Assembly (NCBI RefSeq): GCF_000303155.1
Contig: NC_018719.1
Location: 2,046,001 to 2,110,000 of the forward strand
DNA length: 64,000 nucleotides
From: Candidatus Nitrososphaera gargensis Ga9.2
GTDB taxonomy: Archaea > Thermoproteota > Nitrososphaeria > Nitrososphaerales > Nitrososphaeraceae
Reading direction: 5' to 3'
A model generated the notes under the pieces. It saw only the letters and a list, made by a program, of their open reading frames with translations, was not told where the DNA came from and did not search any database. How positions within the stretch are numbered: position 1 is the stretch's first letter; the number at the start of each line of letters is the position of its first letter. Below, piece after piece: positions 2,349 to 46,709 of the stretch. Both the position numbers and the translations under genes were made by a program.

Positions 2349-3955
2349 AGCTTCTTTCTCAGCGTGACGGCAACTGCAGCCGCCGCAGCAGCAAAGCCGC
2401 CGTACGCCAGGTACGGGCTGTAAGGCAGCATCACAGCCGATCCAACGAACAGTGCTGATGCAAGTATGCTTGCTGCAAGTGCGGCGTTGTCGCTTCTATC
2501 CTGCCTGTCATAAGGTCCCATTGTCTCCAAGTATGTTTTTAGCAAGGGAGCAACGTTCACCGAATCCTGTATGCCCTTTGCAAACCTCTTTGCAGAGACC
2601 TTTACTTCCTCGATGTAGGCGTCTCTTACCAAGCCTTCCTCTTCGAGCAGGTTTGCTAGCACCTTGACAAACTGGAACGGCACCTTGTGGTGGTGGTAGA
2701 TGCCTTCGAGGATAGAGGCCATGCGCATGTAGAGCGCAAGGTTCTTTGGCAGCCGGAATGGAAAGCGGCTCATTGTCTTGTTTGCAAGGTCGACAAGCGC
2801 CTTCACTTCCATCCTGTCCACCTGCTTGCCGTGCATCGACTGGATTGAAAGCTCGATGCCCCGCTCGACGACGTAGCGGTTGACTGTGGGCTCAAGCGCC
2901 CCAAGCTCTATTAACACGTTGACGGTCCTCTCCGGGTCCTTATCAAGAAGGCCGAGGTAGAGTCGAATGAGCCTGATGCGGGTCTCGCTGTCCAGCCTGC
3001 CGACCATGCCAAAGTCATACAGTATCAGCCGGCCATCATCGGCAACTGAAATGTTGCCGGGGTGCGGGTCGGCGTGGAAGATGTTGTGGCGCAGGAGCAT
3101 CTTAAAGAACAACCAGTGCGCGCGCACCACCAGCCTTTCCCTATCGATCCCCTTTTCCTCCAACCTTGCAATGTCGGTTATCTTTGTGCCTGGCACGTAT
3201 TCCATCGTAAGCACATGCCTGCTGGTCCTTTCCATGAATACGTCAGGTATTATGACTGACGGGTCGTCCGCCAGATTTTCCTTGATGGCGAGCAGGTTCT
3301 GGGCTTCCACCCTGTAGTCCATCTCTTCGTGCACTGTTTCAATGAACTGTGCCAGCATGCCTTCTGCCGAGAACCGCAGGTTGGGGTCAATGAACCGGGT
3401 CGCAAGCGGCATTATTTTTTTCAGGACGTAAATGTCGTCCTCGATTATCCGCTCGATGTTGGGCCTGCCCACCTTGACAATGACCTGCCTGCCGGCATAT
3501 TTTGCGACGTAAACCTGCCCAAGCGACGCGCCGGACAGCGGAGCCGTGTCAAACTCTTCAAATGCGTCCTCTACCTTTCCAAGCTCGGCCTCGATTATCG
3601 GCTTTATTTCAGAGAATAGCGCAGGCGGCACATCATCCTGCAGTTTCGCAAGGACTTCAAGATAGGGCTGCGGCAGGATGTCAACCCGGGTTGAAAGCCA
3701 CTGACCAAGCTTGATGTACGATGGGCCAAGCTCGATGAACGTCTTGAGCGCCTTGCGGGCATGACGGCGATACTTTTCCTCATCAACGTTCTTGCCCTCC
3801 TTCTTTACCCACTCGCGCCTGTCCCTGCGCAGGCTGATGACAACCGGCAAGAGCTTGAGCACGACCTTGGCTACATGTAGCTTGGAAGGGTGCGGAAAGA
3901 CAGGCGTTTCATCGTCGATACTCCTGTCTTTTCTGATCTGGGCCGGGTGCTCCAC
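2345..3955 (-). CDS. ABC1/UbiB-family atypical protein kinase
   Basis: A 536-residue protein with the UbiB/COQ8 hallmarks: KxGQ-like motif (IKLGQWLSTR, about 81-90), Ala/Gly-rich nucleotide loop GASLGQVY (142-149), invariant Lys near 161, catalytic loop HADPHPGN (294-301) and DFG (314-316). Two hydrophobic helices close the C-terminus (about 490-530), suggesting membrane association. Bacterial and mitochondrial members support ubiquinone synthesis; the archaeal substrate is unknown, but a role in quinone or lipid homeostasis is plausible since menaquinone genes occur in this window. It lies 5 bases after the 138-residue gene on the same strand, so they are probably co-transcribed. Confidence 0.9.
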   Translation of the reverse strand: MEHPAQIRKDRSIDDETPVFPHPSKLHVAKVVLKLLPVVISLRRDRREWVKKEGKNVDEEKYRRHARKALKTFIELGPSYIKLGQWLSTRVDILPQPYLEVLAKLQDDVPPALFSEIKPIIEAELGKVEDAFEEFDTAPLSGASLGQVYVAKYAGRQVIVKVGRPNIERIIEDDIYVLKKIMPLATRFIDPNLRFSAEGMLAQFIETVHEEMDYRVEAQNLLAIKENLADDPSVIIPDVFMERTSRHVLTMEYVPGTKITDIARLEEKGIDRERLVVRAHWLFFKMLLRHNIFHADPHPGNISVADDGRLILYDFGMVGRLDSETRIRLIRLYLGLLDKDPERTVNVLIELGALEPTVNRYVVERGIELSIQSMHGKQVDRMEVKALVDLANKTMSRFPFRLPKNLALYMRMASILEGIYHHHKVPFQFVKVLANLLEEEGLVRDAYIEEVKVSAKRFAKGIQDSVNVAPLLKTYLETMGPYDRQDRSDNAALAASILASALFVGSAVMLPYSPYLAYGGFAAAAAAVAVTLRKKL

Positions 3956-18147: not shown

Positions 18148-20250
18148 ATGTCCAACTCGATCTTCTTCGCTCCCAAGTCTATAGCCGTCATCGGGGCCTC
18201 GGAAAAACCCGGCGTGGGCAAGACTATCTTTAACAATATTGCAAAGCACTTTAAGGGCAAGATCTACCCTGTCACCCCGTCAAACCCGACCGTGAGCGGT
18301 CTGACTGCATACAAGAGCGTGCTTGATGTCCCAGAATCTGTGGACCTTGCGGTCGTGGCTGCCCCAAGCAGGTTCACCCCGGCGGTAATGGAAGAGGTGG
18401 GTAAGAAGGGGATCAAGGGCGCGATAATCGTTTCTGCAGGGTTCAAGGAGGTGGACGAGGCCGGCGCCAAGCTGGAAAAGGAGGTTGGCGAAATCGCCAA
18501 AAAATACGGCATCAGGGTGATAGGCCCAAACTGCCTTGGCATCATGAGCCTGTCGGCAAACAACATGATGAATTCTACTTTTCTGAAAATTACTCCAAAG
18601 CACGGGGGCATTGCGCTAGTGTCGCAGAGCGGCGCGATCTGCGCGGCCACCGTGGAGGATGCAGAGGCGCAGAACATCGGCTTTTCCAAAGTCATCAGCA
18701 TGGGCAACAAGGTGGACATGGACGAAAGCGACGTGCTAGAGTTGCTGGCAGAAGATCAGGACACACGCGTAATCGTGATGTATCTTGAGGACATACGCAA
18801 CGCAAGGCGCTTCATGGACATCGCAAGGAGGATAACGATCGAAAGGAGAAAGCCCATAATCGTGCTAAAGTCCGGCAGGACGGCGGAAGGCGCCAAGGCG
18901 GCAGCCTCCCACACCGGCGCGCTGGGCGGCTCTGACGCAAACTATGAGGCGGCGTTTGCCCAGTGCGGCGTCATCCGCGTCGACACTATGGGCGAGCTGT
19001 TCGACCTTGCCACCGCATTTTCAAAACAGCCGCTGCCAGACGGCGGAGTGGTCATTGTTTCAAACGCAGGCGGCCCCGCGATAATATCGACCGACGCCTG
19101 CTCAAGATACGGGCTAAAGATGGCCGATATTTCGTCAATCAGGGACGACATTGCCAAGGTCATACCGGCGTACGGGTCGCCTAGAAACCCGGTGGACATT
19201 GTGGGCGATGCAGACTATATAAGGTTTGAAAACGTGCTGAATCTAGTCCTTTCGCATCCAAACGTCGGCTCTGTAGTTACCATGTGCACACCTTCTGCCA
19301 CCCTGAACTACGACGACCTTGCCCGAGTCCTTGTCAAGATGTCCAAACAATTCCCAAACAAGACAATACTTGCCTCGCTGATGGGGCTTGCCGAAGGAAT
19401 AGAAAACAGGGCGATAATGTCCGAAGGCGGCGTGCCGTACTACCTATATTCAGAGCCGGCGATAAGGACACTCAAGGCGATGTACGATTTCAAACAATGG
19501 GTCGACACCGCCTCGACAAAGGCGCCGATGCTCCAGTTTGCCAAGGACAAGAACAAGGTCAAGTACATCTTTGACAATGTCCGCAAGCAGGGGAGAACCA
19601 ACCTCCTTGAGGAGGAGGGCTATGAGGTACTCAGGGCCTACGGCTTTCCTACTCCAAAGAGCATACTTGGCACCACTGAAGAAGAATGCATAAGGGCTGC
19701 AAAGGAGATAGGCTACCCTGTCGTCATGAAGATAGCATCACCGGACATTATCCACAAGTCTGACGCCGGCGGCGTCAAGGTTGGGGTCAAGAATGATGAC
19801 GAGCTGCGCCAAGCGTTCAGGTCGATAGTTGAAAGCGCGAAAAAGTACAAGGCAGACGCCAAGATAAAGGGAGTGCTCGTGCAAGAGATGGTCAAGTCAG
19901 CCAAGGAGACGATACTTGGCGCAAGTCAGGATCCGACATTTGGGCCGGTGATCATGTTCGGTCTTGGCGGCATCTATGTCGAGGTGCTCAAGGACGTGGT
20001 CTTCCGGGTCGCACCGATAGACGAGCGCGAGGCGACAAAGATGGTCGAATCGATCAAGACGATCAAGCTGCTAAAGGGCGTAAGGGGCGAGAAACCGTCA
20101 GACCTGAAGGCGATCTCGGATTCCCTCCAGCGGCTGTCCCAGCTCGTGGTCGACTTTCCAGAGATAAAAGAATTTGACATCAACCCGCTCCTTGTGCTCG
20201 AAGAGGGCAAGGGCGCGCGTGTGGTCGACGCCAGAATAATACTAAAGTAG
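18148..20250 (+). CDS. ADP-forming acyl-CoA synthetase, candidate hydroxyacid-CoA ligase of the 3HP/4HB cycle
   Basis: A 700-residue fused-subunit enzyme of the acetyl-CoA synthetase (NDP-forming) family. The alpha part has a CoA-binding Rossmann domain (SIAVIGASEKPGVGKTI) and ligase domains with GPNCLGIM, VSQSGAICA and the phosphohistidine segment SHTGALGGSD (His near 255). The beta part from about 480 is an ATP-grasp domain (GYPVVMKIASPDIIHKSDAGGVKVGV; VLVQEMV; DINPLLVL). In ammonia-oxidising archaea enzymes of exactly this form activate 3-hydroxypropionate and 4-hydroxybutyrate, saving ATP in carbon fixation. Which of the two, or acetate or another acid, cannot be decided from sequence here. 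Confidence 0.85.
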   Translation: MSNSIFFAPKSIAVIGASEKPGVGKTIFNNIAKHFKGKIYPVTPSNPTVSGLTAYKSVLDVPESVDLAVVAAPSRFTPAVMEEVGKKGIKGAIIVSAGFKEVDEAGAKLEKEVGEIAKKYGIRVIGPNCLGIMSLSANNMMNSTFLKITPKHGGIALVSQSGAICAATVEDAEAQNIGFSKVISMGNKVDMDESDVLELLAEDQDTRVIVMYLEDIRNARRFMDIARRITIERRKPIIVLKSGRTAEGAKAAASHTGALGGSDANYEAAFAQCGVIRVDTMGELFDLATAFSKQPLPDGGVVIVSNAGGPAIISTDACSRYGLKMADISSIRDDIAKVIPAYGSPRNPVDIVGDADYIRFENVLNLVLSHPNVGSVVTMCTPSATLNYDDLARVLVKMSKQFPNKTILASLMGLAEGIENRAIMSEGGVPYYLYSEPAIRTLKAMYDFKQWVDTASTKAPMLQFAKDKNKVKYIFDNVRKQGRTNLLEEEGYEVLRAYGFPTPKSILGTTEEECIRAAKEIGYPVVMKIASPDIIHKSDAGGVKVGVKNDDELRQAFRSIVESAKKYKADAKIKGVLVQEMVKSAKETILGASQDPTFGPVIMFGLGGIYVEVLKDVVFRVAPIDEREATKMVESIKTIKLLKGVRGEKPSDLKAISDSLQRLSQLVVDFPEIKEFDINPLLVLEEGKGARVVDARIILK

Positions 20251-44798: not shown

Positions 44799-45203
44799 AT
44801 GAGCAAGCCGATGGATCTTGGCGCACTCAAAGTTGGTTCATACATCATCATCGACGGCGAACCGTGCAGGATTGTTTCGTATGACCACAGCAAGCCGGGC
44901 AAGCACGGTTCGGCAAAAGCAAGGATCACAGCAGTGGGAGTCTTTGACGGCAGGCCGCACCCGTTTGTAGGCCCGGTGTCAACCAAGGTTGACGTGCCGT
45001 TGATAGACAAGCGCAATGGCCAGATCATTTCAAAGCAGGGAGACACCCTCCAGATAATGGATCTTGAGACGTTCGAGACCTTTGAGACGTCTTCAGTGGA
45101 AGATGAGATCAAGGAAAAGCTTGCGCAGGGCGACATTCAGGGCCGCGAAGTAGAGTACTGGAAGGTCCTCGATAGAATCAAGATAGTAAGGGTCAAGGGC
45201 TAA
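44799..45203 (+). CDS. eif5A: translation factor aIF5A
   Basis: A 134-residue protein: SH3-like N-terminal domain with the hypusine loop SKPGKHGSAKARI (modified Lys in PGKHG, about residue 36) and a C-terminal OB domain (NGQIISKQGDTLQIMDLETFETFET). It relieves ribosome stalling at difficult peptide bonds once deoxyhypusine- or hypusine-modified. Full length, own TATA box; a box C/D RNA gene lies 33 bases downstream on the same strand. Confidence 0.97.
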   Translation: MSKPMDLGALKVGSYIIIDGEPCRIVSYDHSKPGKHGSAKARITAVGVFDGRPHPFVGPVSTKVDVPLIDKRNGQIISKQGDTLQIMDLETFETFETSSVEDEIKEKLAQGDIQGREVEYWKVLDRIKIVRVKG

Positions 45204-45236
45204 AAGTTCATACAATAGAACCACGGATCGTTTTCT

Positions 45237-45311
45237 GGATGCTGATGAGGTGAAGGAAGAGCCGGCTGATCATCGTTTTGGCTGATGAAGATTATGAGTC
45301 CTGAGGCATCC
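45237..45311 (+). ncRNA. box C/D guide sRNA, predicted to target C34 of a CAU-anticodon tRNA
   Basis: Terminal stem GGATGC (45237-45242) with GCATCC (45306-45311); box C TGATGA (45243-45248); box D' CTGA (45266-45269); box C' TGATGA (45283-45288); box D CTGA (45301-45304). The C'-D spacer is exactly 12 bases, AGATTATGAGTC. Its complement GACTCATAATCT reads as an anticodon stem-loop containing CAT, and the base opposite position 5 upstream of box D is the C of CAT (C34). This agrees with the archaeal sR-tMet guide for 2'-O-methylation of elongator tRNA-Met C34. The C-D' spacer (17 bases) is longer than usual, so its target is unclear. Confidence 0.75.
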
Positions 45312-45320
45312 GTCATTATA

Positions 45321-46709
45321 TCACATTCTTCTTGATCTTGGGTTAACGATGGCATCAAGCGCGTTCCCAATAAGCACAAACGCAAGCCCTGTTATGGCTA
45401 TCATGAGGCCGGGCGGAATTATCCACCACCAGAGGCCGCGGGAAGCTGCGCCTGCAGAGTTTGCGTCATGCAGGATCTGACCCCACGTCGGAATGGACGG
45501 GTCTCCAAGTCCCAGAAAGCTGAGCATTGCTTCGCCCAAGATTGCCCCCGGCACAGAAATGGCAATGCTGGCAAAAGTCAGTGGCAGCAGCTGCGGGATT
45601 ATGTGCTTGAATATGATCTTCCTGTCAGACTGGCCCATGAGCTTTGCCGCTTCGACGTACTGCAGGTTCTTTAGCTGGAGCGCGATACTTCTGCTTATTT
45701 TCGCCATGCCGACCCAGCCGAAAATTACAAGAAAACCGGTGATCAGGAATATGCTCTTGCCGACCGTGATCGACAATATGATGAGCAGCGGAAGTGGCGG
45801 CAGCGAGTAAAATACGTCGTTTATCCTCATCAGGCCCTCATCAGTGCGGTTTCCTTTGTAGCCTGCGATAACACCATATATCAGACCAATGATCATGCCG
45901 GCTATTGAAACGGTGAGCCCTATGAAAAGCGCCACCGGCGCTCCCCACAGGATTCCGATCGCCAAGTCATGGCGCAGCTCGTCCGTGCCCATGAGTCCAT
46001 AGACCTCGCCGCCCAATATGACCCCGGAGTTGGTCACCGAGTCGTTTGAATCAAACAGGTAAAAGGTTTCACGGATTACGTACGTGCCCTTCAACACACT
46101 GTCTTGTTGTGAGTCTGAAAATATCATTACCTGCGGCCTTGAAACATCCTGCCTGTATGCAAAATCGTCCAGATAGTTGCGCAGGTTGTCGGCGATCAGC
46201 CTGTCCGTGGAAAATACCCTTGCCGAGAACTCATTGCTACCTTGCTGTGACGAAGGAAGCGAAGCAAAGTAGATCCTGAATTCTTTGCCGTCAGGCCGCA
46301 GCACGTCTATCTGGAGAGCCGGCTGTGTGCTGCCGTACCTCGCAGAATACAGCATCATAAAGTCGCTCGGGTACGAATCATAGTTAAAGTTCACCGTGTA
46401 TGAATGCGTCACGGTGCGCACGCCTCCTTGAACCGAGCTTGATACCGCTGCATCTTTTGCTGTCATGAAGATGTGCTCCGGCACCTTTGGCCCGAACAGG
46501 TTTGTCCAAGCCGGCGCAGCAGACTTGGGGGTGTCGATCCAAAAGTTGGGGTTGTTCCACTGCCTGAATGATTCAAGCGGCACCGCGACCGCCGCATAGG
46601 TTGTCATCAGTATGAGGACAAGCAGTATCCCAGCGCCGGCAAGGCCACTCTTGGAGCGCCTGAACTCCCTTAGTAGCTCAGAGCGTGAAACAACTTTGGC
46701 TGCTGTCAT
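45321..46709 (-). CDS. peptide/nickel-type ABC permease, DppC family, with large external insert
   Basis: A 462-residue permease. TM1 is near residues 20-42. A soluble insert of about 190 residues follows (about 45-235), far longer than in typical DppC (total about 290). Then come five TM helices with the EAA loop GEAMLSFLGLGDPSIPTWGQIL near residues 395-420, the classic OppC/DppC block. The insert should face outside and could contact the large binding protein. It overlaps the DppB gene by 4 bases, so translation is coupled. Confidence 0.9.
   Translation of the reverse strand: MTAAKVVSRSELLREFRRSKSGLAGAGILLVLILMTTYAAVAVPLESFRQWNNPNFWIDTPKSAAPAWTNLFGPKVPEHIFMTAKDAAVSSSVQGGVRTVTHSYTVNFNYDSYPSDFMMLYSARYGSTQPALQIDVLRPDGKEFRIYFASLPSSQQGSNEFSARVFSTDRLIADNLRNYLDDFAYRQDVSRPQVMIFSDSQQDSVLKGTYVIRETFYLFDSNDSVTNSGVILGGEVYGLMGTDELRHDLAIGILWGAPVALFIGLTVSIAGMIIGLIYGVIAGYKGNRTDEGLMRINDVFYSLPPLPLLIILSITVGKSIFLITGFLVIFGWVGMAKISRSIALQLKNLQYVEAAKLMGQSDRKIIFKHIIPQLLPLTFASIAISVPGAILGEAMLSFLGLGDPSIPTWGQILHDANSAGAASRGLWWWIIPPGLMIAITGLAFVLIGNALDAIVNPRSRRM

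Follow-up and report, generated by a model that had tools for sequence, protein, structure and literature searches.

A conserved archaeal box C/D sRNA with predicted guides for C34 of elongator tRNA-Met and C2510 of 23S rRNA

The window, the whole stretch of 64,000 nucleotides that was analysed (G000:C1:2046001-2110000), belongs to a single-contig archaeal genome of 2,833,868 bp. Between the gene for aIF5A and an oligopeptide-type ABC permease gene on the opposite strand lies a short element in which boxes C, D', C' and D follow one another in order within a terminal stem, the arrangement expected of a box C/D sRNA (Table 1). This anatomy, including the 12 nt guide between boxes C' and D, had been described in the initial annotation and was confirmed by direct reading of positions 45237-45311; the identity of the upstream gene, also named there, was supported by a match to NF003076 (E 2e-51). 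The guides adjacent to boxes D and D' are each complementary to a stable RNA, with the fifth base from the box opposite C34 of tRNA-Met and C2510 of 23S rRNA respectively. With a C-D' spacer of 17 nt and a D'-C' loop of 13 nt the layout is longer than is usual in archaea. A scan for bacterial-type promoters and terminators yielded nothing.

Table 1. Features of the sRNA and its flanks (window positions)
Feature	Position	Strand	Remarks
aIF5A gene	44799..45203	+	Upstream of sRNA; stop codon 33 nt before sRNA; NF003076, E 2e-51
Candidate TATA-like element TTCATAC	45207..45213	+	Predicted from upstream sequences of congeners
Terminal stem, 5' strand, GGATGC	45237..45242	+	Pairs with 45306-45311; two-sided changes among relatives
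Box C, TGATGA	45243..45248	+	Read directly; conserved in A1
C-D' spacer, 17 nt, with D' guide; core GGAAGAGCCG at 45255-45264	45249..45265	+	Core pairs with 23S rRNA CGGCUCUUCC; D'+5 = C2510 (E. coli numbering)
Box D', CTGA	45266..45269	+	Read directly; alignment of relatives
D'-C' loop, variable, 13 nt here	45270..45282	+	Alignment; length very different among relatives
Box C', TGATGA	45283..45288	+	Read directly; alignment of relatives
D guide AGATTATGAGTC, 12 nt	45289..45300	+	Complementary to elongator pre-tRNA-Met GACTCATAATCT; D+5 = C34
Box D, CTGA	45301..45304	+	Read directly; alignment of relatives
Terminal stem, 3' strand, GCATCC	45306..45311	+	Pairs with 45237-45242; covaries
Oligopeptide-type ABC permease gene	ends at 45321	opposite	Downstream of sRNA

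The C'-guide-D pattern TGATGANNNTTATGAGNNCTGA, with one mismatch allowed, was detected in 228 of 400 genomes of the class and 39 of 70 of the family; the reversed control pattern gave only a handful of matches in the class genomes. A joint D' and D pattern matched at least 120 stretches in named genomes, and among the matches listed all titles were thaumarchaeon/Nitrososphaeria or archaeon. A covariance model, constructed from 38 relatives with the window's own sequence among them and giving rough E-values, scored 78 bits at 45237-45311 (E about 1e-22). The model matched every genome of the order in the phylum sample (four from family f1, 49 from f2 and three from f3, the last sharing the D' guide only). 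The next matches within the window, at about 17 bits, appear to be due to chance; two of them (3736-3792 and 18656-18702) were read and resemble coding DNA. The terminal stem was paired in 95.8% of cells, compared with 88.7% in shuffles, and two-sided changes were present in four of its six pairs. Rfam returned no match to the site at the gathering cut-off; the matches below it were almost all box C/D RNAs on the strand of the sRNA. That an intergenic stretch might resemble a C/D RNA by chance finds some agreement in a minimum free energy which is not unusual (z -1.15), yet fold energy is uninformative here, an unremarkable value being expected for C/D RNAs, and the conservation of both guides across the order, together with the model E-value, refutes this explanation and leaves it a negligible probability.

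Both 10 nt cores (guide positions 2-11) are kept across the Nitrososphaerales, with the exception of the D guide in f3. Among 54 distinct double-guide sequences positions 3-11 of the D guide and positions 3-6 and 8-10 of the D' guide were invariant, while positions 1 and 12 drifted. An invariant core with free outer positions is the pattern predicted by a guide duplex of 10 bp.

Exact matches to GACTCATAATCT were limited to the sRNA itself and a single other place in the genome, G000:C1:336081-336092, which is the anticodon loop of an intron-containing elongator tRNA-Met(CAU) gene. The fifth base from box D, G45296, falls opposite C34 of this tRNA. All 12 guide bases pair with the unspliced precursor and 11 of 12 with the spliced tRNA, the 10 nt core fitting both, and the calculated duplex energies were -15.5 and -15.3 kcal/mol respectively, against -10.0 kcal/mol for tRNA-Ile2(CAU). 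The initial annotation had proposed a guide for the anticodon loop of a CAU tRNA with D+5 at C34, to be checked by alignment to elongator tRNA-Met and tRNA-Ile2. Because the elongator gene matches at 12 of 12 positions, the objection that the genome might lack a matching CAU tRNA falls away, and the proposal is supported, with a core conserved together with its target.

It was considered whether another CAU tRNA, either tRNA-Ile2 or the initiator, could be the main target of the D guide, since CUCAUAA is common to all three CAU tRNAs and GACTCATAATC also occurs in the tRNA-Ile2 of one other genome (G089). However, in the genome of the window tRNA-Ile2 (L002) is mismatched to the guide at position 10 and forms a G-U pair at position 2, and the initiator tRNA (L037) carries C39, hence the same mismatch, again with G-U at position 2. 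Full complementarity around C34 was found with elongator tRNA-Met and with neither of the others. In addition, C34 of Ile2 in archaea is normally agmatidine (PMC7668247), and we regard a different CAU tRNA as a very improbable main target.

The elongator tRNA-Met gene of this genome contains a 17 nt intron, ATCTCATGCAATAAGAA, between ...GTACGA CTCATA and ATCGTA... of the exons. Within the genus Nitrososphaera six genomes have the intron, with ATCT as its first bases after CTCATA, and four lack it, the intronless congeners still carrying the sRNA; the first intron bases in this genus repeat the ATC of the 3' exon. In the Nitrosopumilaceae-like family f2 the tRNA-Met intron lies at 30/31, directly 5' of the guide target, and in f21 and f6 it lies slightly farther upstream. 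The f2 introns (L243-L264) fall inside the anticodon stem and are very variable in length, and conventional tRNA patterns miss these genes. The 10 nt target ACTCATAATC was unbroken in every tRNA-Met precursor read, so that base pairing alone cannot tell the precursor from the spliced tRNA as substrate. Guide position 12 is A in the six intron-containing congeners and G in the four intronless ones. Selection on this position for pairing with the intron was considered and rejected, as the difference probably arose once in the phylogeny and position 12 varies freely in other lineages.

The core of the D' guide, GGAAGAGCCG, has a perfect 10 nt match to CGGCUCUUCC in the large subunit rRNA gene. 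The D'+5 base is the C of GGC in CGAUGUCGGC followed by UC, which corresponds to C2510 in E. coli numbering (counted on MG1655 rrlH). The initial annotation had recognized one half of the RNA, the tRNA-Met C34 guide, and had missed a conserved D' guide with a 23S target of its own. Position 7 of the D' guide and its partner in 23S rRNA switch jointly, being G-C in f1, f9, f21 and f22 and A-U in f2; this compensatory change (AGAGCC/GGCUCU to AAAGCC/GGCUUU) was present in every f2 genome in which both partners were read, and it represents one lineage event. No other sequence evidence speaks as strongly for an action of the D' guide on 23S rRNA. A candidate alternative target, tRNA-Lys(CUU), was rejected, as it offers approximately nine pairs with wobble against the perfect 10 nt in 23S. 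No report of a methylation site at 23S C2510 was found in the literature searched. As a separate observation, Plasmodium snoR28 (Rfam RF01604, compared with window 45233-45311) has a D' guide, GGAAGUGCCG, like the C2510 guide; the match is sub-threshold and may be chance.

The sRNA could also be a single-function tRNA-Met guide in which the D guide alone works, the conserved D' guide being an rRNA chaperone or inactive. A precedent exists in the tRNA-targeting sRNAs of Pyrobaculum, which are said to have a second guide without a target in the part of PMC7994747 that reports Lui et al. 2018. Yet the D' core pairs with 23S rRNA without a mismatch and covaries with it, and it is retained in f3 and f25 despite a different D guide, all of which makes a single function improbable. 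Two active guides are the preferred reading. The f25 sRNAs, which come from outside the class (L299-L310), have GAAGAGCCG before D', a GAAGCC/GGCTTC stem and another D guide, variable and G-rich. Those of f3, inside the order (L311-L313), share the D' guide GAAGAGCCG, the boxes and a similar stem, and their D guide (e.g. ATACCAGTTCAAT) is not the tRNA-Met guide. Since f3 and f25 keep the 23S guide and carry another D guide, guide modules appear to have been exchanged. The 23S guide is thus the more widespread, with the tRNA-Met guide coupled to it in the Nitrososphaeria, and the sRNA genes of f25 and the Nitrososphaeria may share descent, judging by layout and D' guide.

Several other variants were observed. 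In genera g3 and g4 (L319 and L320) the C'-D spacer is 13 nt rather than 12 nt, so that D+5 would fall on U33. One f9 locus (L049, genome G268) keeps the tRNA-Met D guide and has its D' guide replaced by ATGGATGTATAT; aIF5A is divergent there, about 200 bp away. More distant archaea (L315 in G539 and L314 in G500) possess C/D sRNAs with TTATGAG or CTATGAG guides resembling that for tRNA-Met C34, and their D' guides are unrelated.

The aIF5A gene lies upstream of the sRNA in the genus Nitrososphaera and at many f2 loci; in genera g2 and g6 the sRNA is present and aIF5A was not found in the DNA fetched. In ten congeners an element TT(C)(A)ATAC starts 29-32 nt before the sRNA, whatever the distance to the aIF5A stop codon, and loci from named Nitrososphaera MAGs share their upstream sequence with congeners (e.g. 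L116 and L096). At f2-like loci the corresponding element is TAAAAT; relative to the beginning of the sRNA it starts at -28 at 77 of 93 loci and, across all aIF5A arrangements, between -30 and -26 at 84 of 92. The latter spacing was found at 38 of the 43 loci with aIF5A ending 0-15 nt before the sRNA, at 19/20 where it is 61-250 nt off, at 5/5 where it is farther and at 21/23 without aIF5A in the fetched DNA. At the most closely packed loci TAAAAT is situated inside the last aIF5A codons (RTKIMRIK-stop). If transcription starts at the first base of the sRNA, a position of about -28 to -30 is where an archaeal TATA box would be expected. Ahead of the sRNA at L073, L129 and comparable f2 loci stands the 3' terminal sequence of aIF5A, ACTAAAATAATGCGTATTAAAAGCTAA, without the reading frame itself, and it is apparently a relic retained as promoter.

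The initial annotation had suggested possible expression from the aIF5A promoter, in which case the sRNA would be the processed 3' end of a co-transcribed aIF5A mRNA. The two are on the same strand, with the sRNA 33 nt past the aIF5A stop codon in the genus Nitrososphaera and 0-15 nt past the gene at 43 f2-like loci. Against this, the spacing of the TATA-like element is fixed with respect to the sRNA wherever aIF5A lies, including the loci where aIF5A is distant or was not found, and g2 and g6 have the sRNA without aIF5A in the fetched DNA. The fixed distance makes transcription of the sRNA in its own right likelier than co-transcription, which we consider unlikely. The sRNA probably has its own predicted promoter, overlapping the 3' end of aIF5A in many relatives.

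The haloarchaeal sR-tMet is reportedly a trans-acting box C/D RNA guiding Cm34 on elongator tRNA-Met. The present sRNA would likewise act in trans with a predicted Cm34 guide for elongator tRNA-Met, and here too the full complementarity is with the intron-containing precursor. It differs in a conserved second guide targeting 23S C2510, in genomic context and in the C'/D' loop. The likeness to sR-tMet as described in the part of PMC4033218 that cites Joardar et al. 2011 is thus one of function, and neither the D' guide nor the genomic context points to the common descent implied by the initial annotation, which had suggested an orthologue. As predicted here, the sRNA unites a thaumarchaeal equivalent of sR-tMet with an rRNA guide in one molecule.

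A tRNA-Met wobble guide has been reported in Pyrococcus (PMC7994747), and Rfam sR41 (RF01126) looks like this guide by sequence. In our reading of its alignment the D guide of sR41 (...CUAUGAG..CUGA) is likewise directed at the C34 position in a CAU anticodon, and sR41 gave the best Rfam E-value at the site (21.4 bits, E 0.0026, below the gathering cut-off of 54 bits), but its D' guide is unrelated to GGAAGAGCCG. In the double-guide C/D sRNAs described from archaea both guides address rRNA, at sites no more than about 100 nt apart (Dennis et al. 2015, PMC4644070). The present RNA resembles these in having two guides of 10-12 nt, and differs in pairing with one rRNA site and one tRNA site. Unlike the Pyrobaculum tRNA guides, as that part of PMC7994747 presents them, it has a conserved rRNA partner guide. 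Pairing of an rRNA guide with a tRNA guide was not described for archaeal tRNA guides in the literature surveyed, and the C/D sRNA reviews and surveys in the literature searched made no mention of thaumarchaea.

The anatomy, the unique full complementarity, the conservation, the compensatory guide/target change and the promoter-like element at a fixed distance were all seen in the sequences. We hold with high confidence that the locus encodes an archaeal double-guide box C/D sRNA for 2'-O-methylation of tRNA-Met C34 and 23S C2510, probably with its own promoter. The transcript, probably made from that promoter, would act with the L7Ae-Nop5-fibrillarin complex. Through its D guide it would bind the anticodon loop of elongator tRNA-Met, or of the precursor, and direct a methyl group to C34; through its D' guide it would bind domain V of 23S rRNA and direct one to C2510. 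Methylation is known to concentrate in domain V near the peptidyl transferase centre (Dennis et al. 2015, PMC4644070), and Cm34 is thought to stop C34 reading AUA (PMC7668247); the benefit may be that decoding is restricted to AUG. A wider reading, which we put forward as speculative and rather doubtful, is that in ammonia-oxidising archaea the tRNA-Met wobble mark and the peptidyl-transferase-domain mark, both dependent on one RNA, would rise and fall together, that the promoter in the coding end of aIF5A would tie decoding mark, ribosome mark and translation factor into one unit, and that the tRNA-Met introns are placed so that the 10 nt target is never broken before splicing.

One RNA, kept throughout an order of very abundant archaea, is thus predicted to guide methylation both in rRNA and at the wobble base of a tRNA. 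The comparison of f25 and f3, in which one guide was kept and the other swapped, makes exchange of guide modules directly testable, and the two predicted modified sites, Cm34 and Cm2510, can be looked for in ammonia oxidisers that grow in culture.
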